27,645 nucleotides of DNA from a virus: positions 1 to 27,645 of the IMG/VR virus record IMGVR_UViG_3300008120_000718. One strand, 5' to 3'. Below the pieces are notes generated by a model, which saw only the letters and a program-made list of their open reading frames with translations, made no database searches and was not told the DNA's origin. Both the position numbers and the translations under genes were made by a program. Positions 3,037-19,863 of the stretch are shown here, in pieces (the first letter of the stretch is position 1; each line of letters opens with the position of its first letter).

Positions 3037-4212
3037 ATGGCGAGACAATTTTTAACACCAATTGATTTAAATAAGTTGGAACTGCAGAATGCTCGTATTC
3101 AAAACTTAGGTGCTGATCCAAATCCTGCTGTTGCTGGTCAAATTTACTATAATACAGTTGATGCACAATTAAAGTATTATAATGGATCCGCTTCAGCATG
3201 GCAAGTAATTGGTCAAAGCGTTGAACAACTAGAAGATGCAGTTGCTGATTTATTAACAGCAGGTAATGGAATTTCCATTGACTACAACGATGGCACTGGA
3301 ACATTAACAATTGCTAACACAGGAGTAACTAGTGTTTTAGGTACCGCAAACGAAGTTGACGTATCTGCATCAGCAGGTGCTGTAACTATCAGTTTGCCAA
3401 GTACAATTAATGCTAATACAACTGGCAATGCTAATACTGCAACAACATTACAAAACTCAAGAACTATTTCTTTAGGCGGAGACCTAAGTGGTAGTGCAAG
3501 TTTTAATGGTGGATCAGACATTACAATCACTGCTGCAATTCAAGCAAACTCTGTAGCATTAGGAACAGATACAACTGGAGACTATGTTGCTGGAGCAAGT
3601 GCTGGAAATGGAATTAGCGTTTCTGGAAGTGGTGGTGAAGGATCAAACCTAACTATCACTAACACAGGTGTATTAAGTCTAACTGGAACTGCAAACGAAG
3701 TAACCGTATCTGCATCAGCAGGTAATATTACTGTAGGATTGCCAGACAACGTAACTGTTGCTGGAGATTTAACAGTTGACGGAAACTTAACAGTATCAGG
3801 AAGCACAACTTATTTAAATACCGCAACACTTCAAGTAGAAGATAATAAAGTACTATTGAACAGCAATGTCACTGGTGCACCTTCTACAGATGCAGGTATT
3901 GAAATAGAACGTGGAGACGCTGCTAATGCTGAATTCTTCTGGGATGAATCAGAAGCAAGATGGTCAGCAAGCAATGGCTCTGCAACCTACGTTGCTGCAC
4001 TTAAATACTCAGCAAACGTTGGAAATAACTCTGCAACATCATTTGCAATCACGCACAATCTCGGTACAAGAGATGTTACTGTAAATGTTTACGATAATGC
4101 AACCTACGAAACAGTAGAAGTTGACATTGCAAGAACAAACTCAAACACAGTAACTGTAACTTTTGCCGCAGCACCAGGCACTGATGCATATCGTGTTGTA
4201 ATAACAGGTTAA
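3037..4212 (+). CDS. Tail-fibre protein with repeated stalk motifs
   Basis: 391 residues, with a strong ribosome binding site (AAGGGAGG, 3021-3028). N-terminus 'MARQFLTPIDLNKLELQNARIQNLG' followed by 'GQIYYNT...LKYYNGSAW' is a common phage fibre leader. The middle is a stalk with two 'GTANEV.VSASAG..T..LP' units (about residues 103-126 and 216-239) and Thr/Asn/Ser-rich linkers, then 'VAGDLTVDGNLTVSGST' (beta-prism-like). The last about 70 residues are a tip domain with 'SFAITHNLGTRDVTVNVYD', related to the tip of the preceding gene. Likely a trimeric side or central fibre. The leader is also related to that of the 889-residue gene at 4261. A stable hairpin follows at 4219-4246. Confidence 0.72.
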   Translation: MARQFLTPIDLNKLELQNARIQNLGADPNPAVAGQIYYNTVDAQLKYYNGSASAWQVIGQSVEQLEDAVADLLTAGNGISIDYNDGTGTLTIANTGVTSVLGTANEVDVSASAGAVTISLPSTINANTTGNANTATTLQNSRTISLGGDLSGSASFNGGSDITITAAIQANSVALGTDTTGDYVAGASAGNGISVSGSGGEGSNLTITNTGVLSLTGTANEVTVSASAGNITVGLPDNVTVAGDLTVDGNLTVSGSTTYLNTATLQVEDNKVLLNSNVTGAPSTDAGIEIERGDAANAEFFWDESEARWSASNGSATYVAALKYSANVGNNSATSFAITHNLGTRDVTVNVYDNATYETVEVDIARTNSNTVTVTFAAAPGTDAYRVVITG

Positions 4213-4218
4213 CAACTA

Positions 4219-4246
4219 GTGGGGGTAGGGTAAAACTTATCCCCAC
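4219..4246 (+). other. Stable intergenic hairpin before the large fibre gene
   Basis: GTGGGGGTAGG (4219-4229) pairs with CTTATCCCCAC (4236-4246), 11 bp including two G-U pairs, closing a 6-nt loop. No T-run follows, so it is not a normal terminator. It ends 7 nt before the AAAGGAAAA ribosome-binding region of the gene at 4261 and could mark an RNA processing site or set the relative dose of the two fibre genes (inference). Confidence 0.5.
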
Positions 4247-4260
4247 AAACAAAGGAAAAC

Positions 4261-6930
4261 ATGGCAAAGAAATTTTTAACAGGATTAAACCTAGCGAATT
4301 TAACTTCAGATCCAGCAACTGGGTCAGAAGGAGAAATTTATTTTAATACAACTAGTGATACTGTTAGATTATATTCAAATGGTTTATGGAAAGATTTAGT
4401 AACAACAATAAATGCTAGTACAGTATATGGAAATTTAAATAATATAGATGCAGTATCTTATCCTGATTATATTGTTTTTGATACCACCCCCGAAAGCACT
4501 TCAGCATCAGTTGGAACACTTGCTTGGGATACTGGAGAAGGAAATCTATCTTTACAGGTAACAACTAATTCAAATATTGGTATAGGACAAGAACTTATAG
4601 TTTTAGCAAATAATGGTGAAGCAACTCAATTAAACAAAGGTGAAGTAGTACGTCTTGATGGTGCATCTGGTCAAAGACCAGTAGTAAAAAGAGCATATAG
4701 TACAGATGGTGATACTGGATCAGCACTAACAATTGGTATTGTTAATGAAAATATTGCAGCGGGTGCACAAGGATTTATAGTTACTCAAGGTATTGTAAGA
4801 AATATTAATACAGATGGATTTAATGAAGGAGACGCTTTATATATATCTGCTAGCCCTGGAGTTTTGTCTACAGTAAAACCACAAGCACCAGAACATTTAG
4901 TTTTTGTTGCAATAGTATTAAAGAAAAACGCTGCTTCTGGTAGATTATATGTAAAACCTCAAAATGGTTACGAATTAGAAGAACTACATGACGTAAGAAT
5001 TACCTCAGCCTCTGCTGGAGATATTATTGTATGGAACTCTGCATCATCTATATGGTTAAATCAACCTTTGCAAACTTATTTAACTTCGGCTTCAAACGCA
5101 GCATTAGCGTCTGCTAGTGCATATACAAATACTTCCTTAATCCCATACTTAACACAATCTTCAGCATGTGCAACATATATTCCATGGAGTGCTTCTGCTT
5201 CATTAGGTGGTGGAGGTGGTGGTGGTGCTGCTGTTGACTATCAATCAACTCAACCAGATGTAACTGGTTTAGCAGCAGGAAGTTTGTGGATTGACTCTGA
5301 CCAAGATGCACCTTCAGGATTACTTCCAGCAACATTTACACGCTGGGTAAAAGTACTAAGTGCAAGTGCAACAACACTATCAGGATTAGATGATAATGCT
5401 TTATCTTTAATTTATACACCAGGATATGAAAAAGTATTTATAAATGGTACTTTATTAGTAAGAGGATCAGACTATACCGCGACAACTGGAAACACAATTG
5501 TTTTATCTGTTGCTGCAGAAGTAACTGACGTAGTAGAAGTTCACTCTTACGAATCATTCCAAATTGCAGATGTTTATACACAAGCACAAATAGATTCTAA
5601 GTTTAATAACTATACTCGTTGGTCAAAGACTTATAGTGCAAGTGCTACAACAATTACTGGTACTGATGATTATGCAAACGTATTAGACTATACAAATAAT
5701 TATGAAAGAGTATTTATCAATGGTATATTATTAGATCCTTCTGAATATACCCGCACAAGTGCGTCAGTAATTACACCAGACGAAGCAATATTGTCTGGAG
5801 ATGTTGTTGAAGTATTTAATATTGAATCTGCACAAATTGGTGACACTTATACAACTGCTCAAATTGATGCTAAGTATAATAATCGTACTCGTTGGACAAA
5901 AACTTATTCAGCCTCTGCTACAGTGATTAGCGGTGTAGATGATAATTTAAATACTCTCTCTTATACTTCTGGATACGAAGAGGTTTATCTAAATGGAATT
6001 TTATTAACACCAGTAACTGACTATGCTAGAACTAGTGCTTCGGTGGTAACCCTAGGATCGGCGGTAGTTAGTGGAGATATTATAGATGTAGTAAATGTTG
6101 TTCCATTTAACTATACTGATGCATATACTAAAGCACAAATAGATGCTAAATATAATGACTATACAAGATGGACTAAGACTTTATCTGCTTCTGCTACTAC
6201 TATAAGTGGTAATGATAATAATTCATTACCTTTATCTTATACCCCTGGAAAAGAGCAGGTTTATGTAAATGGTTCTTTAATTATGAGAGGAACTGAGTAT
6301 ACAGCCTCTTCTGGATCTACAATTGTTCTCAATGAAGCGGCGGTAGTAGATGATGTAATTGATGTTGTATCTATAGTTCCATTTAATGTTGCTAATGTTT
6401 ATACTCAAACTCAAGTTGATAGTAAAGTTGGAACTAATGGTGGTATGGTTCTTATTAATAAAACTGATTTTACTGCACAGTCTAGTATAAATATAAATAA
6501 TTGTTTTAGTTCAACTTATGATAATTATTTAGTTCAAATAGATTATACAGCGGCAGCAAGTTTAGGTATTTCTCTAAGAATGAGAGTATCTGGCACAGAT
6601 AATTCATCTTCTCTTTATTACAATCAAATATTAACAGCAGATAATACCACTGTTTCAGCATCTAAAAGTAATGCTCAAACATCTGTTTTAATTGGTTATG
6701 GAAATACTGATAGAAGTTATATTAATCTAAATGTTAATTCACCTGCTATTGCTAGAGCAACTATTGGTGTTTCTAATCTTGGTGAAAATTTAAATGGAAC
6801 TGGAAATGCTTTTAGATTTTTTGGTTGGGGCCACAACGTTGCCACTGCTTATGATGGTTTTACTATATTTACAAATACAAGTAATATAACTGGTACTATA
6901 AGAGTATATGGATATAGGAATGAATTATAA
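4261..6930 (+). CDS. Large modular tail fibre with four 92-residue repeats and a VYGY-type tip
   Basis: 889 residues. Order: 'MAKKFLTGLNLANL' leader with 'GEIYFNT..D.VRLYSNGLWK' (1-50); a beta domain near 115-240 of the kind described in many aquatic phage fibres ('KGEVVRLDGASGQRPVV...IGIVNENIAAGAQGFI'); an Ala/Ser-rich stalk with repeated SASA/YLTQSSA motifs; a run of seven Gly (about 316-322); four tandem modules starting with TRW at residues 360, 452, 543 and 635, each ending YTxAQIDxK; and a C-terminal domain (about 730-889) ending in IRVYGYRNEL. That tip domain recurs in the genes at 6953, 7483, 8384 and 10301. Probably a trimeric receptor-binding fibre. The repeats differ at many synonymous positions, so they are not a recent duplication. 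Confidence 0.78.
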   Translation: MAKKFLTGLNLANLTSDPATGSEGEIYFNTTSDTVRLYSNGLWKDLVTTINASTVYGNLNNIDAVSYPDYIVFDTTPESTSASVGTLAWDTGEGNLSLQVTTNSNIGIGQELIVLANNGEATQLNKGEVVRLDGASGQRPVVKRAYSTDGDTGSALTIGIVNENIAAGAQGFIVTQGIVRNINTDGFNEGDALYISASPGVLSTVKPQAPEHLVFVAIVLKKNAASGRLYVKPQNGYELEELHDVRITSASAGDIIVWNSASSIWLNQPLQTYLTSASNAALASASAYTNTSLIPYLTQSSACATYIPWSASASLGGGGGGGAAVDYQSTQPDVTGLAAGSLWIDSDQDAPSGLLPATFTRWVKVLSASATTLSGLDDNALSLIYTPGYEKVFINGTLLVRGSDYTATTGNTIVLSVAAEVTDVVEVHSYESFQIADVYTQAQIDSKFNNYTRWSKTYSASATTITGTDDYANVLDYTNNYERVFINGILLDPSEYTRTSASVITPDEAILSGDVVEVFNIESAQIGDTYTTAQIDAKYNNRTRWTKTYSASATVISGVDDNLNTLSYTSGYEEVYLNGILLTPVTDYARTSASVVTLGSAVVSGDIIDVVNVVPFNYTDAYTKAQIDAKYNDYTRWTKTLSASATTISGNDNNSLPLSYTPGKEQVYVNGSLIMRGTEYTASSGSTIVLNEAAVVDDVIDVVSIVPFNVANVYTQTQVDSKVGTNGGMVLINKTDFTAQSSININNCFSSTYDNYLVQIDYTAAASLGISLRMRVSGTDNSSSLYYNQILTADNTTVSASKSNAQTSVLIGYGNTDRSYINLNVNSPAIARATIGVSNLGENLNGTGNAFRFFGWGHNVATAYDGFTIFTNTSNITGTIRVYGYRNEL
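5338..6435 (+). repeat. Four tandem 92-residue fibre modules
   Basis: TRW start codons at 5338, 5614, 5887 and 6163, so periods of 276, 273 and 276 nt. Each unit reads TRW-K-[ST]ASAT..[ST]G.D[DN]....L.YT...E.V[FY][IVL]NG.[LS].........Y.........V.......VVD-V and closes with YTxxQ[IV]DxK. Two more copies are in the gene at 10301. Confidence 0.8.
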
Positions 6931-6952
6931 AATGGAGGGTATAAAATAAATT

Positions 6953-7468
6953 ATGGCTAGACCAAGAGAAGCATCTAAGGGTGCATTAATACTAACCAAT
7001 TCTTCATCACATTCTTCAACTTCTGCAATAAATATAGATAATTGTTTTAATACAAACTATAATAATTATAAAATATCATTTAACATAGTTCCAGGAACTT
7101 CTGATGCATTAATTTATGTTAGGCTAAGAACTGGTGGAACTACAAACACTTCTTCTAACTATAATCAATATAGAGTAAACTACTCTGGATCAGTCACTGT
7201 TTCTAGAGGACAAACAACTTTTTGGAATTTATATGATACTAGAGGTGTTGACAATTTTTCACCACTTACTATAGAGTTACAAAATCCATTCAACACACTA
7301 TATACAAGTGGTTATTATGAAAACGTATATGCTCCAGAAGTTTCTACGCTATCTGGTAATCATGCAATATTAGGTACATCTGTAACAACATCATATGATG
7401 GAATTAGTTTGTATGCGTCTACTGGAAATATTAGTGGAACAGTTCAAGTCTATGGATATAGGAAATAA
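6953..7468 (+). CDS. Short receptor-binding-type tail protein, M-x-R-x-R leader and VYGY tip
   Basis: 171 residues. The leader is MARPREASKG, a variant of the M-x-R-x-R-[DE] start shared by six genes here. There is almost no stalk; the tip domain begins at once: 'SAINIDNCFNTNYNNYKISF' (around 23-42), 'YVRLRTGG' and the close 'SYDGISLYASTGNISGTVQVYGYRK'. The N-C-F-x-x-x-Y-x-N-Y opening and SYDG...GYR ending define the domain also found at the end of the 889-residue fibre. The start is preceded by GGAGGG-TATAAAAT, which could be a ribosome binding site with long spacing or a -10 box. Likely an attachable adhesin tip (inference). Confidence 0.66.
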   Translation: MARPREASKGALILTNSSSHSSTSAINIDNCFNTNYNNYKISFNIVPGTSDALIYVRLRTGGTTNTSSNYNQYRVNYSGSVTVSRGQTTFWNLYDTRGVDNFSPLTIELQNPFNTLYTSGYYENVYAPEVSTLSGNHAILGTSVTTSYDGISLYASTGNISGTVQVYGYRK

Positions 7469-7482
7469 GGGGGTATATATAA

Positions 7483-8094
7483 ATGGGTAGAGCAAGAGAT
7501 CTAGCAAACATATTATCTAGTAGTGGTAGTGTTGCTTTGGATAGTGAGATGGGACTTTCTTTAATTACCCCGACTTCTATTGCTGTTACAAGTGGTAGTG
7601 GATCAATTAGTGCAACTGGTGCTGTATCCTTTACAAGTGCTTCTGCAGTAAGTTTAAATGGTTGTTTTAGTTTAAATTACGATAATTATTTAATTACACT
7701 ATCCGATACTGGTTCAACAACAACACAAAGTTTAAATTTAAGAGTTAGAGCCAATGGAATAGACAATACTTCTACTAATTATTATGGAAAGCAATATGGT
7801 GGAAATAGTGACCAAGCAAATATTACCACAAATGATATTGTTGGAACAAGTCTTCCAATAGGAATTGCAAAAAGTGGTGAGGCTAACAGTTGTGATATTA
7901 GTATTAGAAATCCTTTTAGTTCTTCTTTAAGGACTCACATATATGCTGGTTGTAGTTTTAGTGATGGCACCAATGGAAGAGTTTATACATATGGATGTTC
8001 ACTTTCAGTTACAACTTCTTATGACGGAATAACAATATTTCCAGCATCGGGAACAATTACAGGATCAATTCGTGTTTATGGATATAGAAATTAA
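7483..8094 (+). CDS. Short receptor-binding-type tail protein, MGRARD leader and VYGY tip
   Basis: 203 residues. Leader MGRARDLANILSSSG, a short linker ('DSEMGLSLITPTSIAVTSGSG' type, quoted only in part: TPTSIAVTSGSGSIS), then the tip domain: 'AVSLNGCFSLNYDNYLITL', 'LNLRVRANGIDN', Cys-containing middle, and 'SYDGITIFPASGTITGSIRV' before the YGYRN end. The linker SGSGSISATGAVSFTSASA is shared almost word for word with the genes at 8384 and 10301, so only the tip's middle varies strongly. GGGGGTATATA stands between the previous stop and this ATG. Probable adhesin; receptor unknown. Confidence 0.66.
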   Translation: MGRARDLANILSSSGSVALDSEMGLSLITPTSIAVTSGSGSISATGAVSFTSASAVSLNGCFSLNYDNYLITLSDTGSTTTQSLNLRVRANGIDNTSTNYYGKQYGGNSDQANITTNDIVGTSLPIGIAKSGEANSCDISIRNPFSSSLRTHIYAGCSFSDGTNGRVYTYGCSLSVTTSYDGITIFPASGTITGSIRVYGYRN

Positions 8095-8110
8095 GAAAAG
8101 GAGGTAAATT

Positions 8111-8335
8111 ATGTCAGAAGAAATCAGAGTATCTGAAACTAACGCAGCAACTGGAGAAACAGTTGTTAGAGTGTTAGAAGGTGCTGAACTTGAAGCGTTC
8201 TTGGCTGATCGTGCAGCAATGCAAGCAGAACAAGAAGCAAGAGAAGCAGCAGCCACAGAAAAGGCTGCAGCAAAAGCAGCAATTCTAGAAAGACTCGGGC
8301 TTACAGAAGAAGAACTAGCAACAGTTCTTTCATAA
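8111..8335 (+). CDS. Small Ala/Glu-rich helical tail-accessory protein
   Basis: 74 residues, with an excellent ribosome binding site (AAAAGGAGG). The N-terminal third is beta-like ('IRVSETNAATGETVVRVLEG'), then 'AELEAFLADRAAM' and an Ala/Glu-rich helix, closing with 'AAILERLGLTEEELATVLS'. Small proteins with an 'E....TG.T.V..L...E' start and an 'AKAAxLxRLGxTxxE' end are frequent beside tail-fibre genes of aquatic phages. A fibre chaperone or capping role is a guess from position only. It sits between two VYGY-type adhesin genes. Confidence 0.62.
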   Translation: MSEEIRVSETNAATGETVVRVLEGAELEAFLADRAAMQAEQEAREAAATEKAAAKAAILERLGLTEEELATVLS

Positions 8336-8383
8336 TTTGCCAGGGTATAAATAGAATCTAAGTTATAATTAAAGGAGATTATT

Positions 8384-9028
8384 ATGGGTAGAACTAGAGA
8401 TGTAAGTAAGATTTTAACTTCGAATACCTCGATTTTGACGCTTGCGTCTGCTAGTGCTACCTATGCTACTAAAGCAAGTTCAGGACTAGTATTGTTATCT
8501 CCGCAATCAGTTTCTACTAGCGGAGGAACATCATCAATTGGATCTGGTGGAACAGTATCTTTTACAAGTGCTTCTGCAATATCTTTAACAAATGTTTTTA
8601 ATTCAAATTATAATCATTATAGATTGGTTTTAAATAATATTATTGGAACTGCTGGAGCAAATATAAATATGAGAATGAGAAATTCAGGTGGGGATATTTT
8701 AACAAGCACATATTATCGTCAATATATTTCAGCAAATTCAACATCTGTTGCTGGAGCAAGGCCGTCAGTAGGAACTTTTTGGACAGAGGTAGGATATATA
8801 TATAATGGATATATAGAGGCTGGATCAATAATTGAAATAATGAATAATAATTTAGGAAGTTATACTAGCGTATATTCTACAACTACTAGAAATATAGGAA
8901 CAAATATTGAGTGGATTGCAAATTCATTTGGGCTAGCAGATACAAATGGTCCATTTACTGGGCTTACATTATTAATAAGTTCTGGAACTGCAACTGGAAG
9001 TTTAAGCGTATATGGATATAATAAATAA
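8384..9028 (+). CDS. Short receptor-binding-type tail protein, MGRTRD leader and VYGY tip
   Basis: 214 residues. Leader MGRTRDVSKILTSNTSIL, then 'LASASATYATKASSG' (the SASAxY linker used across the array), 'SIGSGGTVSFTSASAISLTN', and the tip domain 'VFNSNYNHYRLVL', 'INMRMRNSGG', ending GSLSVYGYNK. The Cys of the NCF opening is replaced by Val-Phe and the SYDG motif is altered to 'FTGLTLL', so this is the most diverged of the five tips. AAAGGAG (8371-8377) gives a good ribosome binding site; a TATAAT at 8364-8369 is present, but transcription from it would cut into that site. Confidence 0.66.
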   Translation: MGRTRDVSKILTSNTSILTLASASATYATKASSGLVLLSPQSVSTSGGTSSIGSGGTVSFTSASAISLTNVFNSNYNHYRLVLNNIIGTAGANINMRMRNSGGDILTSTYYRQYISANSTSVAGARPSVGTFWTEVGYIYNGYIEAGSIIEIMNNNLGSYTSVYSTTTRNIGTNIEWIANSFGLADTNGPFTGLTLLISSGTATGSLSVYGYNK

Positions 9029-9046
9029 AGAGGGTATGATTATAAT

Positions 9047-10012
9047 ATGACTAGAGCAAGAGATGTGAGTAGATTAGTTACTACCCCGACTTCTGCGTAT
9101 GATGAATTTGAAGAAGTTTTTGTAGGATCCGCTTCTCCTACTAATAAAAAAATATGGATAAATACTTCTACAGCATCTGCACCTACAATAAATGCAATAG
9201 TAAATTCTACATGGTTTGGTTCAAGTATATATAATATTAATTCTTTGTTGGTAGACTTTCTTGTTATTGCTGGTGGTGGAGGTGGTGGAACTACTCAAGC
9301 AGGAGGTAATCAAAGTTCAGGTGGTGGAGGTGCTGGTGGATATAGAACTTCTACTGGAGTTTCTGGTGGTAATTCTTCTGCAGAAAATCAAGTTGCTTTA
9401 ACTTTAGGTCAAAATTTTACAGTTACAGTTGGTGCTGGCGGAACTGGTCTTACATATCCAGTAAGTGGTGGAATAACTGCTGGAAATGGAACAAACTCTA
9501 CATTCTCAAATATAATATCACTTGGTGGTGGTGGTGGGGCAACTGTTGGCACAACTGGTGCTAGCGGAGGATCTGGTGGCGGTGGAGGTGCTGGTGCTTT
9601 TGGTGGAAACGGAAGTGGTGGTCAAGGATTTTCTGGAGGTAGTGGTAACTATAATGCACAAGGTGGCGGAGGCGGTGGTGCTGGAGAGGCTGGAAATACA
9701 GATGGAAATGGACACGGTGGTGATGGTTTATCAAACAGTATAACTGGATCTGCGGTAACAAGAGGTGGTGGAGGTGCTGGATCAAATTCTGGAACTGTTG
9801 GTGATGGAACTGGTGTTAATACTGGTGGAGGTGGTACTGGTAGTTATACAGGAACTGGTGGAAATGGAAATTCTGGTGTAGTTATATTAAGGTATCCATC
9901 ATATGCAACTTTAAATATTGGAGCAGGATTAACATCCTCAACTCAAACAGTAGCAAGTAATAAAGTTACAACTTTTACAGCAGGTTCTGATAGCGTATCG
10001 GTGGTGATATAA
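9047..10012 (+). CDS. Polyglycine-rich tail adhesin, copy 1
   Basis: 321 residues. Leader MTRARDVSRLVTTPTSAYDE, then 'KKIWINTST' and a glycine-rich domain from about residue 75 beginning LLVDFLVIAGGGGGG, with 'GGGGAGGYRTST', 'VTVGAGGTG', many GGxGGxG runs, and closing with 'SGVVILRYPSYATLNIGAGL' and a beta tail. The 'VDxLVIAGGGGGG' entry and alternating Gly runs are those of phage glycine-rich tail domains (Gly_rich type); the polyglycine adhesin gp38 of Salmonella phage S16 shows how such runs pack as polyglycine-II helices and present variable loops. Followed after 2 nt by its small partner at 10015. TATGAT ends 6 nt before the ATG. Confidence 0.74.
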   Translation: MTRARDVSRLVTTPTSAYDEFEEVFVGSASPTNKKIWINTSTASAPTINAIVNSTWFGSSIYNINSLLVDFLVIAGGGGGGTTQAGGNQSSGGGGAGGYRTSTGVSGGNSSAENQVALTLGQNFTVTVGAGGTGLTYPVSGGITAGNGTNSTFSNIISLGGGGGATVGTTGASGGSGGGGGAGAFGGNGSGGQGFSGGSGNYNAQGGGGGGAGEAGNTDGNGHGGDGLSNSITGSAVTRGGGGAGSNSGTVGDGTGVNTGGGGTGSYTGTGGNGNSGVVILRYPSYATLNIGAGLTSSTQTVASNKVTTFTAGSDSVSVVI

Positions 10013-10014
10013 AT

Positions 10015-10299
10015 ATGGCACATTATGCATTTTTAGATGAAAATAACATAGTTACAGAAGTTATTACTGGTAGAAATGAAGATGAAGTAGTAAATAATAT
10101 TAATAATTGGGAAGAATATTATGGCTCTATTAGAAATCAAAGATGTTTAAGAACTTCATACAATGGTAATATTAGAAAGAATTATGCAGGAATAGGTTAT
10201 ACTTATAATGAAGAATTGGATGCTTTTATACCGCCAAAACCAAGTGGCAACTACATTTTAAATGAAAGCACATGTCTTTGGGAAGAGGTAGCAGAATAA
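10015..10299 (+). CDS. Small 'NYAGIGY' partner of a polyglycine adhesin, copy 1
   Basis: 94 residues. MAHYAFLDENNIVTEVI start, then 'NQRCLRTSYNGNIRKNYAGIGYTY' (in part: RTSYNGN.RKNYAGIGY) and 'LDAFIPPKPSGNYILNESTC.WE'. This is a well known but uncharacterised family next to tail-fibre genes of cyanophages and other aquatic phages. Two paralogues here (14303, 20804) also directly follow polyglycine adhesin genes, which suggests an assembly or capping role for that adhesin (inference). Compared with copy 2 it lacks the C-terminal 'DDKRYVWN' extension. Confidence 0.72.
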   Translation: MAHYAFLDENNIVTEVITGRNEDEVVNNINNWEEYYGSIRNQRCLRTSYNGNIRKNYAGIGYTYNEELDAFIPPKPSGNYILNESTCLWEEVAE

Positions 10300-10300
10300 T

Positions 10301-11575
10301 ATGGCATCAGCACAAATATTGACTAGTGGAAAAGCCTTATATGCTTATAATGGTACAGAATGGGTACCTTTAAATACTACTGGAAATTTAGTTAATTCTA
10401 CCCGCTGGCAAAAAGTTGTAGCAGGTGGAGAAACATCTTTATCTGGTAATGATGATAATGGAGAATCTTTAATTTATACCCCTGGATTTGAACAGGTATA
10501 TCTTAATGGTGTTCTATTAGCAAGAGATGCTGACTATACAGCAACCACAGGAACCACTATAACAGGTCTTACAGCCCTAACAGCGGGGTATATAGTAGAA
10601 ATCATAGCCTATAACAATATAAATGTAGGAAATACATATACACAAACACAAATAGATAATAAGATTGCTAATACATTTACTAGATGGGTAGAAACATTAA
10701 GTGCTTCTGCAACTGTATTAAGTGGATTAGATGATAATTCAAATACTCTTTCTTATACCCCTGGCTTAGAGCAGGTATATGTCAATGGAATTTTATTATT
10801 ACCTTCTGAATATACTGCTACAAGCGGATCTAGTGTAGTGCTCTCAGAAGCGGCGGTATCTGGAGATGTAATTCAAATTTATACCTTAAAGAATTTTAGA
10901 GTTCCTAATACTTATACTATTGCACAAACTGATGATCAATTTTTAACTAAGATTAGTGCTAGTAGCACATATTTAACACAGGCTGCTGGAATTACTGCAG
11001 CAACAGCCTCTGCTACATATGCTCCTACGGCTGCTGGTGGGTTAGTTCAAATTATACCAACTTCTATCGCTGCAACTGGTGGCAGTGGTTCAATTTCTTC
11101 AACAGGAGCAGTATCCTTTACAGGTTCAGTTTCATCAATAAGTTTAAATGGTATATTTAATTCTTCTTACGATAGTTATTTAATAATGTATTTTGGTGAT
11201 GGATCTACAACTGCAGCAAATTTACAATTTCGTATGAGAGTTGGTGGAACTGATAATAGTACTGCAGGTTCTTATATATCACAATCTGTTCAGGGAAATA
11301 GCACTACCGTTGCTGGTGTTAGAGAAACTACTACTTATGGAGTTCTTGGGCAAGTTGGTAGTGGAAATCCAAATGCTTTAGATATGAAACTTTTTAAACC
11401 ATTTTTTGCTGAAAAAACTGCAATATTAGCACAGATGCAACAAGCAGAAGATGTATCTCGTGTTCGTAATATGTCAGGTATTCATAATCAAAATACTTCT
11501 TATGACGGAATAACATTTTTTACTAATACTGGAACATTTACAGGAACTATTCGTGTCTACGGATATAGGAATTAA
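10301..11575 (+). CDS. Modular tail fibre with two 92-residue repeats and VYGY tip
   Basis: 424 residues. Starts one base after the previous stop. A short leader with 'GKALYAYNGTEWVPLNTT' (an AYNGxxW motif like other fibre leaders) leads into two TRW modules at residues 34 and 127, which are copies of the repeat in the 889-residue fibre. An Ala/Thr/Ser stalk with 'ASSTYLTQAAG' and 'SATYAPTAAGG' follows, then the conserved linker 'SGSISSTGAVSFTG' and the tip domain (about 270-424) ending GTIRVYGYRN. It is effectively a shorter version of the gene at 4261. Likely receptor-binding. Confidence 0.74.
   Translation: MASAQILTSGKALYAYNGTEWVPLNTTGNLVNSTRWQKVVAGGETSLSGNDDNGESLIYTPGFEQVYLNGVLLARDADYTATTGTTITGLTALTAGYIVEIIAYNNINVGNTYTQTQIDNKIANTFTRWVETLSASATVLSGLDDNSNTLSYTPGLEQVYVNGILLLPSEYTATSGSSVVLSEAAVSGDVIQIYTLKNFRVPNTYTIAQTDDQFLTKISASSTYLTQAAGITAATASATYAPTAAGGLVQIIPTSIAATGGSGSISSTGAVSFTGSVSSISLNGIFNSSYDSYLIMYFGDGSTTAANLQFRMRVGGTDNSTAGSYISQSVQGNSTTVAGVRETTTYGVLGQVGSGNPNALDMKLFKPFFAEKTAILAQMQQAEDVSRVRNMSGIHNQNTSYDGITFFTNTGTFTGTIRVYGYRN
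10400..10950 (+). repeat. Two copies of the 92-residue fibre module
   Basis: TRW codons at 10400 and 10679 (279 nt apart). The units keep YTPG.EQVY.NG.LL and close with YTQTQIDNK and YTIAQTDDQ. The nearest relatives are repeats 3 and 4 of the gene at 4261, with stretches of shared DNA such as GAAGCGGCGGTA. Confidence 0.75.
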
Positions 11576-11592
11576 GGGGGGTATAAATAATC

Positions 11593-12744
11593 ATGGCTAG
11601 ATCAAGAGATATATCAAAGGTTTTATCTTCTAATACTACACTGGCTACTGACGCTGAGGTGGCTTCTACATATCAGACTAAAGCATTGAACCAGTTCCCT
11701 AATAGAAACATTATTATTAATGGTGATATGCAGATTGCACAACGCGGTACTTCTGTTTCATCAGTAACTTCTGGTGGATATTTAACTGCAGATAGATGGA
11801 ACGAAGGCATAACCACTCAAGGTACTTGGACTATATCTGTTGAAAATGATGCACCAACTGGTTCAGGTTTTCGTAAATCATTAAAATGGTTATGCACAAC
11901 AGCCGATGCTTCACCTGCTGCTGGAGATAATTTACAATTCTTTACAACACTTGAAGGTCAAAATCTTCAAACAATTAAAAAAGGTACAGCAGCAGCCGAA
12001 CAATTAACTCTTTCTTTCTGGGTTAAATCAAATGTTACTGGTACTTATGTTGCTGAACTTTATGATAATGATAATACTCGTCAAACATCAAAACAATATA
12101 CAATTTCTGCATCTGGTGTTTGGGAATATAAAACAATTACTTTTGCAGCAGATACTACTGGTGCTTTTGATAATGATAATGCTTTAAGTCTTTATGCTAT
12201 TTTTGGTTTAGGTGCAGGAAGTAACTTTACTTCTGGTACTTTACAAACTTCTTGGGCTAGTGCTACTACTGCTAATCGTTTTGTTGGTCAAGTTAACGTT
12301 GCATCAGCAACTAACAACTATTGGCAAGTAACTGGTATTCAACTTGAAGTTGGTGCTACTGCTACACCATTTGAGTTTAAAACTTTTGCACAAAGTTTAA
12401 TAGAGTGTCAAAGATATTATCAAAAAAGTTATGCCCAAGGAACTAATCCTGGAACTGCATTAGATTACGCTGGATTGGTAATATGGTCTTCAATAACAAC
12501 AGGTGCTTACGGAAGTGCAATACCTATTTATTTAAAAACAACTATGAGAGCAACACCAACTGTAACTATATATAATCCAGAGACAGGTGCTACTGGAAGT
12601 ATTAGAGGACTTAGTGCTGGTACTAATTTTGCTGGAACTGCTGAATATATTGGACAAAATAGTTTTGCAATTTATGCTACAGCAACACAATCTCCTGCTG
12701 GATATTTAATTGGTGCTCATTATGTAGCGGTGATAGAATTATAA
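11593..12744 (+). CDS. Tail fibre with carbohydrate-binding-like jelly-roll domain
   Basis: 383 residues. Leader MARSRDISKVLSSNTTLATD, then 'NRNIIINGDMQIAQRGTS' and 'YLTADRW', 'LTLSFWVKSNVTGTYVAELYD', 'WEYKTITFAADTTGAF.NDN', 'GSNFTSGT', 'NNYWQVTGIQLEVGATATPFEF' and 'LIECQRYYQKSY'. This order (INGDM..AQRGTS, DRW, SFWVKS, ..W..K.IT..GDT, QLEVG..ATPFE, CQRYY) is a very common phage fibre domain of carbohydrate-binding-module type. The last 110 residues are a different beta domain that ends without the VYGY motif. Probably binds a surface glycan. The gene shares its leader with the VYGY-type adhesins. GGGGGGTATAAA precedes the start. Confidence 0.77.
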   Translation: MARSRDISKVLSSNTTLATDAEVASTYQTKALNQFPNRNIIINGDMQIAQRGTSVSSVTSGGYLTADRWNEGITTQGTWTISVENDAPTGSGFRKSLKWLCTTADASPAAGDNLQFFTTLEGQNLQTIKKGTAAAEQLTLSFWVKSNVTGTYVAELYDNDNTRQTSKQYTISASGVWEYKTITFAADTTGAFDNDNALSLYAIFGLGAGSNFTSGTLQTSWASATTANRFVGQVNVASATNNYWQVTGIQLEVGATATPFEFKTFAQSLIECQRYYQKSYAQGTNPGTALDYAGLVIWSSITTGAYGSAIPIYLKTTMRATPTVTIYNPETGATGSIRGLSAGTNFAGTAEYIGQNSFAIYATATQSPAGYLIGAHYVAVIEL

Positions 12745-12745
12745 T

Positions 12746-12904
12746 ATGTATAAAATATTGCTAATAAACAATAGACAAATATTACAAAGAATATCAGACA
12801 GTGCCTCCATTCCTTTTGATGAAGCAAACAATGATTATCAAGAATATCTGCAATGGATTTCAGAGGGTAATGAAGCAGAAGAATATAGTCTAGAGGGTAT
12901 ATAA
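12746..12904 (+). CDS. Small tail-accessory protein with XkdW-like motif (52 aa)
   Basis: ATG one base after the previous stop (TAATATG), so translation is probably coupled. The 52-residue product starts MYKILLINNRQILQRIS, has 'SIPFDEANNDYQEYLQWISE' and ends in an acidic tail. 'IPFDxANxDYQEYLxWxxxGN' is a recognisable motif of short proteins beside phage tail fibres (XkdW-like) that are often fused to fibre-assembly proteins. Role probably in fibre assembly (inference). Easily missed because of its length, but the motif is convincing. Confidence 0.66.
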   Translation: MYKILLINNRQILQRISDSASIPFDEANNDYQEYLQWISEGNEAEEYSLEGI

Positions 12905-12917
12905 AACTAAAAGGAGA

Positions 12918-12923
12918 TATAAT
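12918..12923 (+). promoter_or_regulatory. -10 box of a leaderless promoter inside the array
   Basis: TATAAT with 6 nt to the ATG at 12930. An AGGAG at 12912-12916 is also present, 13 nt from the ATG, too far for a normal ribosome binding site. The gene may be leaderless or use the distant site. Confidence 0.4.
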
Positions 12924-12929
12924 TAATAT

Positions 12930-13025
12930 ATGAGTAAAGCAAGAGAAATGGCAGATCTTATTACTACCGTCCAAGCATTGGACGTAGACAATAATCCAGA
13001 TATATATTTGAATATGGGAGGTTAA
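12930..13025 (+). CDS. Stand-alone fibre leader module (31 aa)
   Basis: 31 residues starting MSKAREMADLITTVQALDVD, then 'NPDIYLNMGG' and a stop. The start is the same M-x-[RK]-x-R-[DE]-x-[AS]-[DKRN] leader that opens the fibres at 6953, 7483, 8384, 9047 and 11593, but no fibre domain follows. The stop codon is one base before the ATG at 13027, and the gene's last codons supply that gene's ribosome binding site (GGGAGG). It may be the remnant of a lost fibre, a free adaptor, or a docking spot for a swapped fibre. Confidence 0.58.
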   Translation: MSKAREMADLITTVQALDVDNNPDIYLNMGG

Positions 13026-13026
13026 A

Positions 13027-13356
13027 ATGGCAAAAAATTATAAAATAATTGCACAGGCTTCGCCTGCTGCTACTACAGATACTACTTTATATACTGTTCC
13101 TAGTGCAACGCAAGTTGCAATATCTAGTGTTACTATATGTAATCGTGCTGCTACTGCTGCAACCTATAGAATAGCAATGAGACCAAATGGTGAAACGTTA
13201 GCAGATAAACATTACATTGCTTTTGGAGCAACTGTTCCTGCAAATGATACCATAGCACTTACTTTGGGACTAACTGCAGATGCAGCAGATGTTATAACAG
13301 TTTACGCTTCTAGTGCTTCTGTAAGTTTTGGAATATTTGGAAGTGAAATTGTTTAA
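13027..13356 (+). CDS. Small beta-rich tail protein ending in FGSEI, copy 1
   Basis: 109 residues, predicted all-beta. 'YKIIAQASPAATTDTTLYTVPSAT' opens, then 'VAISSVTICNRAATAATYRIAM', 'ANDTIALTLGLTADAADVITVYAS' and 'VSFGIFGSEIV'. This is a common uncharacterised family of small phage structural proteins (YTVP, S.(.)V.NR, A.DT..LT.GI, ...S..FG.EI). Two paralogues are at 18760 and 23374. This copy and the one at 18760 sit directly in front of polyglycine adhesin genes, here with a 1-nt overlap. It may be an adaptor between tail and adhesin (inference). Confidence 0.7.
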   Translation: MAKNYKIIAQASPAATTDTTLYTVPSATQVAISSVTICNRAATAATYRIAMRPNGETLADKHYIAFGATVPANDTIALTLGLTADAADVITVYASSASVSFGIFGSEIV

Positions 13357-14303
13357 TGGCTGTTACTAAATTTAGTACTTCTAATATATTTGGTGCACAA
13401 AAATCTAATAGATCTGGTCAAATTATTTCATCAATTAGGTCTAATCCAATTTCTATAAATGTTGATTATCTTGTTATTGCTGGAGGTGGAGGTGGAAACG
13501 CTGGAGGAGGTGGTGCAGGTGGATATAGAACATCTACAGGAACATCTGGTGGTGGCAGTTCCGCTGAAACTATTCTAAATATAACCGAATCTAATCATAC
13601 AATAACAGTTGGATCTGGTGGTACTGGTGGAAACCCTAATGGATCAGCAGCAGGAAATGGTGAAAATTCTGTATTTTCTTCAATTATTTCAATTGGAGGA
13701 GGTCGTGGATTTTATGGTAATGCCGCTGCACCAACTGGTGGATCTGGAGGGGGTAGAGGAAATTTTGATCCCTCTTCTAGGGTACAAGGAACTTCTGGTC
13801 AAGGATACGCTGGTGGAATTGGTAGTGAGTCTCAATATGCTTTTGGAGCAGGTGGTGGTGGGGGTGCTGGAGGACTTGGCGGTAATGGAACTGGTAGTGT
13901 TGGTGGTAGTGGAGGATCTGGAGTTGCTTCAAGTATAAGTGGATCTTCTGTTACTAGAGCGGGTGGAGGTGGAGGTTCAATATTTTATGGAACTGGTGGA
14001 TATGGAACAACTTCAGGTAGTGGTGGTTCTGGAGGAGGCGGTTCTGCTGTAATAGGAGCATCATCAGTAGGTGGTGCTGGAAGTACTAATACTGGTAGTG
14101 GTGGTGGAGGGACTGGTAGTACTGGTGGAAGCCAAGGAGATATGGGAGTTGGTGGTAATGGTGGTTCAGGAATAGTAATAATAAAATTTCCAGATACATT
14201 TACACTTACAGTTGGTGCGGGTTTAACTTCAACAAATTTTACTTCAGGTGGCTTTAAAACTTATACTTTTACATCAGGAACGGGAACGGTGATTTTTTCA
14301 TAA
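13356..14303 (+). CDS. Polyglycine-rich tail adhesin, copy 2
   Basis: 315 residues. Leader MAVTKFSTSNIFGAQKSNRSG, then 'VDYLVIAGGGGGNAGGGGAGG' in part (VDYLVIAGGGGG), 'YRTSTGTSGG', 'HTITVGSGGTGG', 'SVFSSIISIGGG', many Gly-Ser and Gly-Thr runs, and a C-terminal 'SGIVIIKFPDTFTLTVGAGL' followed by a beta tail ending GTVIFS. It matches copy 1 at 9047 at the domain entry and at the tail ('GAGLTS', 'VTTFTAG' / 'KTYTFTSG'); the middle is free to vary. It overlaps both neighbours by one base, so the beta adaptor, adhesin and NYAGIGY partner form one coupled unit. Confidence 0.75.
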   Translation: MAVTKFSTSNIFGAQKSNRSGQIISSIRSNPISINVDYLVIAGGGGGNAGGGGAGGYRTSTGTSGGGSSAETILNITESNHTITVGSGGTGGNPNGSAAGNGENSVFSSIISIGGGRGFYGNAAAPTGGSGGGRGNFDPSSRVQGTSGQGYAGGIGSESQYAFGAGGGGGAGGLGGNGTGSVGGSGGSGVASSISGSSVTRAGGGGGSIFYGTGGYGTTSGSGGSGGGGSAVIGASSVGGAGSTNTGSGGGGTGSTGGSQGDMGVGGNGGSGIVIIKFPDTFTLTVGAGLTSTNFTSGGFKTYTFTSGTGTVIFS

Positions 14304-14683
14304 TGGCACATTACGCATTTTTAAATCCAGACAATATTGTTACAGAAATAATAACAGGTGTTGACGAAGAAATTATACAAACAGATTTAGATGGCACTCA
14401 AGTTGGTGGATCATCAGAGGCTTGGGAAACATTCTACGGTAACATTAGAAATCAAGTATGTAAAAGAACTTCTTATAATGGTAACTATCGTAAAAACTAT
14501 GCTGGAATAGGTTATAAATATGATCAAGAAAAAGATGCTTTTATACCCCCAAAACCTTTTAATAAATGGGTATTAAACGAAGATACTTGTAGATGGGAAT
14601 CCCCAGTTCCATACCCAAGTGATGACAAAAGGTATGTATGGAATGATAATAAAGGGATATGGGAAGAATTAATTACAGACTAG
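14303..14683 (+). CDS. Small 'NYAGIGY' partner of a polyglycine adhesin, copy 2
   Basis: 126 residues, the longest of the three copies. MAHYAFLNPDNIVTEIITG start, an extra 'TDLDGTQVGGSSEAW' stretch, then 'GNIRNQVCKRTSYNGNYRKN', 'YAGIGYKYDQEKDAFIPPKP', 'WVLNEDTCRWE' and the C-terminal 'DDKRYVWNDNKGIWEE'. The complete form with the last segment is that usually seen in cyanophages. Between copies 1 and 2 the central 40 residues are nearly identical, which suggests a duplication within this lineage. It overlaps the adhesin gene by one base. Confidence 0.73.
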   Translation: MAHYAFLNPDNIVTEIITGVDEEIIQTDLDGTQVGGSSEAWETFYGNIRNQVCKRTSYNGNYRKNYAGIGYKYDQEKDAFIPPKPFNKWVLNEDTCRWESPVPYPSDDKRYVWNDNKGIWEELITD

Positions 14684-15556: not shown

Positions 15557-18500
15557 ATGTCAAGAGAAATATTAGAAAGATTAGATTACACTTTCACACC
15601 ATCAACAAGAACTATTGTTATTAACAATAAATTTATTCCTAGAGAAAAATTAACATTAATTACAAATGTTACAACTAATCAAGTAATCTATAACTTCTCT
15701 GACCCAGCACTAAAAGCCACATCATACAGCAACTCTATCAACTCATCAATGGTAGAAACAACAACCATAGTTTTAAATTACAATACTACATCAATGTCTT
15801 CTACAGACAAATTACAAATAATTATTGATGAATATGAAGAAAGATTTTTACCAGCCGAATCTTATATTGACGCAACTAATAAACTTCGTGTAACTACACC
15901 ACAAGCACTTATTGATACTGACTTTGAATATGGTACACAGATTACTAAATGGGAAAACTTATCTATGATTAACCAAAGACCATTTGCCTTTACTACAGCA
16001 ATTCAAATCCCTAACATTTCATCCATGACGATGAACACAAACTCTAGAACAGTTACTGTTGTGCTATCTTCTGGAACCTTTCCAGCAAACGGTACTGCAA
16101 TATTTGTTCAAGATTCATTCTTAAGTATTGCAAATGGTAATTTTATCATTGAATCTGGTGGTGGATCAAACACTGCTACATATACAGCACGTGCTGCAAA
16201 TACAACAGCAGTTACTGCTATATATGATGCTAATAAAACTGCTATATTCCAAGGAACTCTTTATACAAGTGCTGCAATTGGAGGAACTCCAACATGGTCA
16301 TTTTCTGGAACTCAAATTACTGCAACAACTACAGTTCCTCATGGATTATCAATTGGTAACGAAATTGTAGTAACAGGAACAACCGCAACAACAAATCCAC
16401 CTAATGGATCTTTCATTGTAGCAACTATAGTTAGCCCAACTCAATTTAGATTTTATGCAGCAGCAACACCTACTGGAACCATAGCAAGTGGAACAATATA
16501 TAACCTACCTCAAGGACAAGTTTTACATCGTCCAACTGATGGTGGAGTTATCTTCTCAAGTAACTCAAGTTCTAACTATGAACAAATGGTTCGTCAAACT
16601 CGCCGTTATTTCCGTTATCAATCAGGTAAGGGAATTCAAGCAAGTTCTGGAACAATCTTAAAACCAAACTTACAATTAGATTCTGTTACAGCAGTAGGAA
16701 ACTTAGTAACAGTACAAACTAAAGAAAAACACAATATACTTCCAGGAACATCTATTACAATGAGTGGATGTTTAGATCCTGTTTATAACGGAACATTTAC
16801 AGTAACATCTGTAACTGGATTCAATACTTTCCAATACACAACAGCAACAACCCCTTCTGCAAACGTTGGTTCAGGTCCATACTATGTTGCAGTAAACGGA
16901 TGGTATGGTGCACAAAACCGCTTAGGTATTTTTGATAGTCAAAATGGTTTATTCTTTGAATTTGATGGACAAACATTATTTGCAGTAAGAAGATCATCTA
17001 CTTTTCAATTAGCAGGTAGACTAAGTGTTACAAGTGGTTCAAATACAGTAACTCAAACAACTGCTTCTTTCCCAACTATATTTTCAAAACAATTAAATCC
17101 TGGTGATTACATAGTAATTCGTGGACAATCATATAAAGTACAAGATATTGCTTCTGATACTTCTATGACAATTAGCCCATCTTATAGAGGAGCAACAGCA
17201 ACACATATTATTGCTTCTAAGACGGTAGATACAAAGATTCCTCAATCTCAATTTAATTTAGATAAAATAGATGGAACTGGATTATCTGGATATAATATTG
17301 ATTTATCTAAGATGCAAATGTTTTATATTGATTATTCTTGGTATGGTGCAGGATTTATTCGCTGGGGTGTAAGAGGCCCTAAAGGTGACGTTCTATATGT
17401 ACACAAACAACCAAATAACAATTTAAATAGCGAAGCATATATGCGTTCTGGTAACTTACCAGCAAGATATGAAAGCCAAACATTCCCATATGTAACTATG
17501 ATTACATCAAATGTTGGTGCTTCCGACACAGTATTAAACGTTTCAAGTACTGCGGGATTCCCACCAAGTGGAACTCTTTGCATTAGAGATGCAAGCAAGT
17601 ATGAATATGTTAACTATACAGGAGTTTCTGCAAGTGCATTTAGTGGTTTAACTAGAGCACAAGCAGGTTTAACAACAAACCAATCAGTAACAGTAGCAAG
17701 TGGATCAAATAGTGGAACTATTGGTTCTGCATCTGGTTTACAAATTGGACAAAGAGTTGTAAGTACAGCCTTTCCAGAAGGAACATTCTTAACAAATATT
17801 TCAGGAACAACTCTAACATTTAGCAACGCTGCTTTATCAAGCAACCCTACTGATGTTCTATTCCCACCAATGGGTGCAACAAGCGGTCAATCATTTACCT
17901 ACTCTGCAACTGCTCCAGTAGTTGTTGAACAAGCATTCCCAACATTTGCTCCAACAATAAGTCACTGGGGTACTTCTGTAATTATGGATGGTAGGTTTGA
18001 TGATGATAAATCCTTAGTATTTACATATGGACAAACTACATTTACATCAGTACCAGCATCTTCATCTAGAGCACTTTTCTCAATTCGTGTTGCTCCATCT
18101 GTAGACCAAGGTGTAGTAGGTGCTTTTGGTGCAAGAGAACTTATTAACAGAATGCAGTTAGTTCTTCGTGCACTAGATATTACAACAAGTACATCAAGTG
18201 CTAATCTTTTGATTACTGCAATATTAAACGGTACTCCTTCTTCAACTACAGCATGGACAAATGCTGTAAATAACGTAACTACAGTACAAAATTCAAGTCT
18301 TGCACAAATTGCAAACTATGCAGGTGGAAGCACAACAGTATCTGGTGGTGAAGTAACTGCAGGTTTCTTCGTAGGAACTGGTGCTAATAGCGTTGATCTT
18401 AATACAGTTCGTGATTTGGGTAACTCTATTCTTGGTGGTGGATCTACAAACTCTAATACAAATATTTATCCAGATGGACCAGATACATTAACAATTGTTG

Positions 18501-18571
18501 TAACAAACCTAAATACATCAGCATCAGCAAGTGTATTGGGACGTCTATCCTGGACTGAAGCACAAGCATAG
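15557..18571 (+). CDS. Large tail/baseplate structural protein of T4-like aquatic-phage type
   Basis: 1004 residues, the longest gene here. 'MSREILERLDYTFTPSTRTI' start, a beta-rich N-terminal half with 'WENLSMINQRPF' and two 'VTG/TVTSV....FQ[FY]' Ig-like units, then 'NRLGIFDSQNGLFFEFDGQT', 'GDYIVIRGQSYKV', 'TKIPQSQFNLDKIDGTGLSG', 'MQMFYIDYSWYGAGFIRWG', 'EAYMRSGNLPARYE', 'HWGTSVIMDGRFDDDKSLVF', 'ARELINRMQLVLRALDI' and 'RLSWTEAQA'. I recognise these blocks from large structural proteins of marine T4-like myoviruses. It is probably a core piece of baseplate or tail to which the neighbouring adhesins attach. Its GGGAGG ribosome binding site overlaps the end of the previous gene. Confidence 0.74.
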   Translation: MSREILERLDYTFTPSTRTIVINNKFIPREKLTLITNVTTNQVIYNFSDPALKATSYSNSINSSMVETTTIVLNYNTTSMSSTDKLQIIIDEYEERFLPAESYIDATNKLRVTTPQALIDTDFEYGTQITKWENLSMINQRPFAFTTAIQIPNISSMTMNTNSRTVTVVLSSGTFPANGTAIFVQDSFLSIANGNFIIESGGGSNTATYTARAANTTAVTAIYDANKTAIFQGTLYTSAAIGGTPTWSFSGTQITATTTVPHGLSIGNEIVVTGTTATTNPPNGSFIVATIVSPTQFRFYAAATPTGTIASGTIYNLPQGQVLHRPTDGGVIFSSNSSSNYEQMVRQTRRYFRYQSGKGIQASSGTILKPNLQLDSVTAVGNLVTVQTKEKHNILPGTSITMSGCLDPVYNGTFTVTSVTGFNTFQYTTATTPSANVGSGPYYVAVNGWYGAQNRLGIFDSQNGLFFEFDGQTLFAVRRSSTFQLAGRLSVTSGSNTVTQTTASFPTIFSKQLNPGDYIVIRGQSYKVQDIASDTSMTISPSYRGATATHIIASKTVDTKIPQSQFNLDKIDGTGLSGYNIDLSKMQMFYIDYSWYGAGFIRWGVRGPKGDVLYVHKQPNNNLNSEAYMRSGNLPARYESQTFPYVTMITSNVGASDTVLNVSSTAGFPPSGTLCIRDASKYEYVNYTGVSASAFSGLTRAQAGLTTNQSVTVASGSNSGTIGSASGLQIGQRVVSTAFPEGTFLTNISGTTLTFSNAALSSNPTDVLFPPMGATSGQSFTYSATAPVVVEQAFPTFAPTISHWGTSVIMDGRFDDDKSLVFTYGQTTFTSVPASSSRALFSIRVAPSVDQGVVGAFGARELINRMQLVLRALDITTSTSSANLLITAILNGTPSSTTAWTNAVNNVTTVQNSSLAQIANYAGGSTTVSGGEVTAGFFVGTGANSVDLNTVRDLGNSILGGGSTNSNTNIYPDGPDTLTIVVTNLNTSASASVLGRLSWTEAQA

Positions 18572-18759: not shown

Positions 18760-19095
18760 ATGGCAGTAGATTATAGAATTTTAGGACAAGCAAACGTTGC
18801 TGGTGCAATTGGAACATATAGTACAGTTGCTGGCCCAGTTGCTACTGGGAGATCTTGGATAGTTTCAACAATTGTAATATGCAATCAAACTGCTAGTGCT
18901 CAAACATATAGACTTGCAGTCTCTGGATCAACATCACCTGCTTCATCCGAATTTATTGTTTACGGTTCTACAGTGCCTGCAAATGATACAGTGACACTGA
19001 CACTAGGTATTACAATGCAGGCTGGTAAATATATAATGGCATCTGGAACAAGCAGTTCCGTTTCAATATCTGTATTTGGTACAGAAATAAGTTAA
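18760..19095 (+). CDS. Small beta-rich tail protein ending in FGTEI, copy 2
   Basis: 111 residues. 'YRILGQANVAGAIGTYSTV' start, 'SWIVSTIVICNQTASAQTYR', 'PANDTVTLTLGITMQAGKYI' and 'SVSISVFGTEIS'. It is a clear paralogue of the gene at 13027 and of 23374, with the same order of strands and the same ending. The TAATAATG junction (19093-19100) leads directly into the broken polyglycine gene at 19098, so this copy too is placed in front of an adhesin. Ribosome binding site GGGAG inside the previous gene's end. Confidence 0.7.
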   Translation: MAVDYRILGQANVAGAIGTYSTVAGPVATGRSWIVSTIVICNQTASAQTYRLAVSGSTSPASSEFIVYGSTVPANDTVTLTLGITMQAGKYIMASGTSSSVSISVFGTEIS

Positions 19096-19097
19096 TA

Positions 19098-19863
19098 ATG
19101 TCGATCAGTTGGTGGTGGAGGTTCATCCGCTCAAACAGTATCGGGACCAAGACGTGGTGCTGGTGGAGGTGGTGGTGCTGTTGTTCAGGTTAATCAATTT
19201 TATATTGGAGACTATAATACATGGTATATATTTATAGGTGGAAATGCTACTGGCTCTGTTTATGGTACTGATAACTGTTCTGGAAATTCTTGGGGACATG
19301 CAGGAAACCCAACTATTTTTTCTCCTATTTCTAACTCATTTGCTTTAGCAAATTTAACTGGTATTGATCCTAGTAACTTAAGAAGAACTTTGATAGCACC
19401 TGGAGGTGGCGGTGGTGGACACCCTTGTGGATCTGCTGGTTCATTTGGTTTAGGCTCTGCTGGTGGTACTGGCTCAAATAATGCAAATAACACTTATGGA
19501 ATGGTTCCTTATGCTATTGGTGAACCAACATCAGGAAAAGTTGCTTGGCAAGCATATGGAGGTCGTGGAGGTGTTTCTCCTACTACTGGTAGTCCAGGTG
19601 GTGGTGGTGGTGGAGCAGGAGGTACCGCTAGTAGTGGTACAGGTGGAGTTGGAATAACATTACAATCACCATTTTCTGCTGTTTGCTATGGCGGTGGAGG
19701 TGCTGGTGGTAGCGGTGGTGTTAGTGGAGACTGTGGCGGTGGAAATAATGCTGTTGGAACTAACGGAAGAGGTGGAGGCGGTGGTGCCTCTCCAACAAAT
19801 TTTGTGGGTAGTAGAACTGGTGGAACTGGGGTAGTTTTAATTAGAGAGTGGTTTTCATCATGA
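19098..19863 (+). pseudogene. Polyglycine-rich adhesin, start out of frame and N-terminally short
   Basis: An open glycine-rich frame runs from 19099 to the TGA at 19861-19863, but it has no usable start near its beginning: the ATG at 19098, in the usual coupled position, is one base out of frame and reads Trp/Cys codons to a stop at 19191-19193. In the correct frame the protein begins SVGGGGSSAQTVSGPRRGAG and continues 'VVQVNQFYIGDYNTWYIFIG', matching the intact adhesin at 19860 from its first Gly run onwards; the roughly 60-residue leader of that gene is missing. One inserted base near 19101-19104 would join the ATG to the frame and give about 255 residues. The first in-frame alternative start is a TTG at 19390. 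It may be a true pseudogene, a sequence error, or a switchable gene. Confidence 0.66.

Follow-up and report, generated by a model that had tools for sequence, protein, structure and literature searches.

Swapping of adhesins is well known in phages and usually concerns one fibre with a variable end. In the branched tailspike clusters of the Ackermannviridae (TSP1-4), adjacent receptor-binding genes have conserved 5' ends and their variable receptor-binding parts are exchanged; an attempted addition of a fifth gene recombined, placing the TSP4 N-terminus onto another receptor-binding domain (PMC11414711). At the distal tail fibre locus gp37/gp38 of T-even phages, specificity is swapped by recombination between conserved motifs, according to Tetart 1998 and Trojet 2011 as cited in PMC3797505. 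The pelagimyophages and cyanomyophages carry a host recognition cluster, a hypervariable tail-fibre island of T4-like aquatic phages, which is divergent and for which gradual divergence was argued from one pair (PMC7029224). Distant Alteromonas phages have modules of a tail fibre and its cognate chaperone in common (PMC10579305).

The stretch analysed here (the window) is an entire IMG/VR virus record of 27,645 bases, which probably covers just part of a larger genome. Its fibre and adhesin genes (3037-14683) lie beside a gene for a T4-like structural protein, phrog_5838 (15557-18571, the anchor), whose best annotated relatives are those of cyanomyophages at ~45-47 % amino acid identity. As in the host recognition cluster, a variable fibre array adjoins a conserved T4-like structural gene; relative to that work, the present comparison resolves slot structure, breakpoints and exchange units (PMC7029224).

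The array is a variant of known phage adhesin mosaicism and exchange. Like the Ackermannviridae clusters it places receptor-binding-type genes side by side, with conserved 5' ends and exchanged variable parts, but it has more slots, unrelated body types, type-specific partners and a stand-alone leader. The conserved N-termini of the Ackermannviridae are structured anchor, XD and TD domains, whereas the leaders described here comprise ~10-30 residues (PMC11414711); scanning the proteins of the array against PHROG and Pfam returned no family named as gp10-like XD or TD1. The T-even locus, as presented in the account cited above, is a single one, whereas the window has a parallel array of slots between which bodies have moved. 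As in the Alteromonas modules, a fibre and a small cognate partner move together between phages, with the differences that the partner families here are without known function and that movement also involves slots of one array (PMC10579305).

Layout of the array

The sequence-only reading had reported six genes starting with M-x-[RK]-x-R-[DE], and all are present: MARPRE (6953), MGRARD (7483), MGRTRD (8384), MTRARD (9047), MARSRD (11593) and MSKARE (12930). The chance expectation for such starts is ~0.006 among the 35 window genes of at least 60 aa; the sixth leader gene, 12930, is shorter than 60 aa and hence outside this estimate. The C-terminal domain said to be shared by 4261, 6953, 7483, 8384 and 10301 was recovered by BLASTP (E 5e-5 to 6e-54). 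Its VYGY ending occurs five times against 0.12 expected, but 2-4 further residues trail the motif, which is thus not strictly terminal.

All genes of the array are on the plus strand. Slot 0 (4261-6930) encodes a long fibre whose shaft domains are repeated and whose tip is of the VYGY type, assigned from the repeats and tip homology. It is followed by slot A (6953-7468), with the leader MARPREASKG and a VYGY tip recognized by HMM match, and slot B (7483-8094), with the leader MGRARDLANIL and a VYGY tip. A small partner of the VYGY tips, of the LEAFLADR...ILERLGLTEEEL type (8111-8335), separates slot B from slot C (8384-9028), where the leader MGRTRDVSKIL precedes a further VYGY tip. In slot D (9047-10012) the leader MTRARDVSRLV is joined to a glycine-rich adhesin (PF21722), with the small partner of glycine-rich bodies, phrog_7759, immediately downstream (10015-10299). 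Slot E (10301-11575) consists of a MASAQIL shaft with a VYGY tip. Slot F (11593-12744) has the leader MARSRDISKVL and a fibre matching phrog_4492 (E 3e-68), a tail-fibre body abbreviated CBM in this text after the carbohydrate-binding annotation of some relatives; its small partner, of the MYK...IPxDxxNxDY type, is phrog_20370 (12746-12904). Slot G (12930-13025) is a stand-alone leader: the earlier identification of a leader gene there stands for the leader, but the product is just 31 aa and no body lies behind it. A Ser/Ala-rich hinge was found in 11/25 leader genes against 15/124 others, an enriched rather than universal feature.

Junction DNA is alike, as had been reported, with 75 % identity between 7388-7518 and 11495-11628, 82 % between 8014-8095 and 11495-11576, and 73 % between 6888-6969 and 8992-9063. 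The described succession of tip end, stop, RBS and leader (for example at 7451-7500) is present at four joins, 4261/6953, 6953/7483, 8384/9047 and 10301/11593; at the remaining joins the small genes 8111, 10015 and 12746 intervene.

The AF2 model of the slot B protein has a pLDDT of 87.8, the exception to this good modelling being the leader, a short low-confidence helix. The model resembles lectin-like beta-sandwiches, with a best Z of 8.4, which is near background for such models, and also many uncharacterized phage proteins. The bodies may bind host receptors. No match to the slot B protein was found among sequenced phages. Searching the proteins of sequenced phages with the leader alone was uninformative, 30 aa being too short a query, and tblastn of the leader against bacterial genomes found none.

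Several neighbouring genes were also noted. At the window edge, 62-640 encodes an endonuclease VII-like protein (phrog_2633), a possible recombination or homing nuclease, and on the minus strand 26981-27490 encodes a protein which we take to resemble a lytic transglycosylase. Three proteins of ~105-111 aa are similar in sequence and length (13027-13356, 18760-19095 and 23374-23688); the first matches phrog_1276, and two of the three genes directly precede glycine-rich genes. More pairs of a glycine-rich adhesin and a phrog_7759-like partner lie outside the leader array, at 13356-14683 and 19848-21091. The structural proteins of the window are cyanomyophage-like, whereas the partner genes of the array also occur on siphovirus-like contigs.

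Leaders and bodies in related lineages

Relatives were gathered by searches with the anchor and the array. Two other lineages had the same array: X, a single contig from one assembly (L090), and Y, four contigs (L170-L173) that are mutually ~99.97-99.99 % identical. Between X and the window, amino acid identity in the anchor is 93 % and nucleotide identity in the backbone 85-87 %, backbone proteins near the array being mostly 78-97 % identical. Two additional contigs, L180 and L182, are essentially 100 % identical to the window over 5.4 and 9.5 kb, except for two short stretches absent from the window. Relative to L182, 90 nt are missing within gene 14720 (at 14964) and ~177 nt near 19104 (19104-19108), the latter gap removing the start of a glycine-rich gene; these are either real deletions or assembly collapse.

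The skeleton of the array is kept slot by slot in the window, X and Y. Over 36 nt, leader DNA averages 93 % identity in same-slot pairs between lineages and 67 % in other leader pairs. For any slot present in both genomes of a pair, the leader is most similar to that of its own slot, with one tie (slot B of X with slots B and P of Y), and between the window and Y almost all leaders are identical. Different bodies do stand behind conserved leaders, including VYGY, glycine-rich and CBM-like ones in agreement with the reported mixing of types, but the leaders are slot-specific rather than generic mixing parts. Window and X leaders are 92 % identical, against 90 % for ordinary gene starts over the same length; because the two are about equally conserved, the leaders need not be special recombination sites. 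The motif TACCCCG was considered as a common break point of slots D and G and rejected as too rare and not confined to leaders.

The bodies behind these leaders differ between lineages. Slot A has a tip ending in IYGI in X and was not found in Y, while slot B holds a VYGY tip in all three lineages. Slot C holds VYGY in the window and Y and a CBM body (phrog_4492) with its partner in X. The glycine-rich body and phrog_7759 partner of slot D in the window are replaced by another glycine-rich body in X and by a CBM fibre with partner in Y. Slot E has one shaft with differing tips in the three lineages; slot F, with CBM and partner in the window, holds VYGY in X and Y; and slot G is a leader alone in the window and X, with a CBM fibre in Y. 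The window and X are thus reversed at two slots, 8384 (VYGY in the window, CBM in X) and 11593 (CBM in the window, VYGY in X). In slot 0 of Y, a shaft 77 % identical to that of the window at the nucleotide level carries another C-terminal domain in place of VYGY. By eye that domain of the Y fibre (L173 8057-9379, with repeated shaft) is C1q-like, no family match confirming it. An interpretation of 12930 as an empty cassette left by recent loss was rejected: at this position X likewise has a short leader without a body, and Y carries another stand-alone leader before a MATKTYK gene. It is probably a stable small gene.

Homology breaks sharply behind the conserved 5' part. For slots A, C, D, F and G, every change point falls within codons 8-26, at positions that differ between slots. 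Between the window and X, the first 33 nt of slot A are identical and identity is 41 % thereafter, and slot C is 96 % identical to nt 79 and then 37 %; between the window and Y, 42 identical nt in slot D are followed by 41 %, and 99 % identity to nt 72 in slot F is followed by 40 %. Homology picks up again in the last ~90 nt of the tips or at the next RBS. In slot B, the leader and proximal tip are 80-83 % identical to X and Y, the tip middle has diverged and the end is conserved; there is no sharp break at codons 8-26 because the proximal tip is also common to the lineages. Tip middles of orthologous slots have 8-23 % amino acid identity, no higher than other tip pairs.

A second clade was represented by three separate contigs (L275, L276 and L277), whose two slots are named P (leader MGRARDIASLL) and Q (leader MGITREMSKIL). 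Slot P is occupied by CBM in L276 and by a CBM-like body in L277; in slot Q, L276 carries VYGY and L277 a body of 174 aa. In L275 a single gene joins leader P to the L277-type Q body (86 % nucleotide identity) near the common hinge, which looks as a deletion between slots P and Q would leave it.

The sequence-only reading had expected gain, loss or swapping of cassettes whose boundaries lie at the leader and the tip/stop junction, and such differences were seen against X, Y and the second clade. The comparison with X and Y did not give one gene order with smooth divergence and no breakpoints at the junctions. Judging from the alignments, past replacement and permutation are shown, the bodies of slots C, D, F and G having been replaced rather than having drifted.

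The unit that moved often includes a body-type-specific partner gene, a refinement of the cassette as first described. Over non-redundant loci, 163/164 partner neighbours were type-matched: a CBM body was followed by a 12746-type gene 64 times, a glycine-rich body by a 10015-type gene 79 times and a VYGY tip by an 8111-type gene 20 times. The loci were partly collected via these genes, so these totals are not frequencies; that does not explain the near absence of mixed pairs, of which there was one, many bodies having no adjacent partner. The 8111 gene is 95-97 % identical at the nucleotide level among the window, X and Y, and its type also sits behind tip genes in unrelated phages. A close homologue of 12746 follows the CBM body in slot D of Y. 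The partner is probably a folding helper or cap.

Exchange and competing explanations

With good confidence, these data are best explained by repeated homologous exchange of adhesin cassettes between leaders that are specific to their slots. This is supported by the abrupt breaks between conserved leaders and differing bodies, by the return of homology at the tip end or the following RBS, by the occurrence of one body class in different slots, by the second clade with its fusion of leader P to a Q body, by the linkage of bodies to their partners, by the concordance of independent assemblies for the window and for Y, and by the RecA-family gene on the X contig. A further point is phylogenetic incongruence: the slot E shaft is closest between the window and Y (94.5 % nucleotide identity, against 85.2 % for the window and X and 84.0 % for X and Y), whereas backbone 21118-21950 is closest between the window and X (89.6 % against 71.1 % for the window and Y). 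Backbone 22767-23366 is about equal (75.0 % for the window and X, 76.8 % for the window and Y). Counted against exchange are that crossovers were not directly observed, that break positions vary, that the leaders of the window and X are about as conserved as ordinary gene starts, that X is one assembly, that no donor closer than 79 % nucleotide identity was found and that the arrays of the window, L180 and L182 are identical over their common parts. Exchange is therefore supported as past events, with no shuffling among near-identical copies.

An old array that arose by gene duplication and descended vertically, its bodies diverging very rapidly under selection and with no exchange between slots or phages, is unlikely as a general account. 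VYGY tips of one fold with diverged middles and the similarity of the slot B proximal halves would agree with it, and some of the differences between tips may still have arisen in this way. It is contradicted by slots C, D, F and G, in which near-identical leaders precede bodies of different classes, and further opposed by the body and partner of slot F in the window, which match slot D of Y at 79 % nucleotide identity, by the conflict between shaft and backbone relationships and by the fusion of leader P to a Q body. Chimeric metagenome assembly is very unlikely: repeated leaders and tips can cause misassembly, a single contig represents X and the window differs from L182 by the two short deletions, but independent assemblies are concordant, Y being the same in four contigs and the window matching two more over common parts, and the second clade comprises three separate contigs. 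A programmed device rearranging the array within one genome (a diversity-generating retroelement, invertible segment or site-specific shufflon) would produce repeated leaders and tip ends around a variable middle, but is highly improbable given that no reverse transcriptase and no serine or tyrosine recombinase (invertase, resolvase or integrase) was found on five contigs, all fragments, that no inverted repeats bounding cassettes were found, that the fibre genes are all on one strand and that copies within one population are identical.

In this explanation the locus serves host recognition in an aquatic, T4-like phage and is organized in slots. Every slot opens with a conserved RBS, followed by a leader of its own, M-x-[RK]-x-[RK]-[DE], of ~10-30 residues, in several genes continuing into the hinge; then come an exchangeable body (a VYGY tip predicted to be a lectin-like beta-sandwich, a glycine-rich adhesin, a phrog_4492 fibre or some other type) and often a small partner of matching type. 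General homologous recombination within short conserved stretches fits best as the mechanism: the left crossover would fall in the RBS-leader-hinge DNA and the right one either in the conserved end of the tip or in the RBS and leader that follow, probably by the phage's own RecA/UvsX-type recombinase during coinfection; the X contig encodes a RecA-family protein. Since paralogous leaders are only ~67 % alike, moves between slots may need microhomology or homology between bodies. The leader itself may serve as a virion docking peptide.

More tentatively, the RBS-leader-hinge and tip ends could form a standing exchange platform on which cassettes and their cognate partners turn over, a reading we hold possible at less than even confidence. 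If true, nearly every slot would turn over much faster than the remaining genome, and one virion would display a changing set of adhesins docked via interchangeable leader peptides.

Swapping is readable here slot by slot: between the window and Y, slots D, F and G differ in body class, slots 0 and E differ in tips, and the VYGY tip middles of slots B and C no longer match. In uncultured phages it thereby becomes possible to measure which unit of an adhesin is exchanged, where its boundaries lie and at what relative rate this happens. The leaders are candidates for minimal tags by which phage adhesins dock, and each of three unnamed small gene families is predicted to be the partner of one adhesin type. 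The array illustrates how such phages can recombine their host-binding repertoire.
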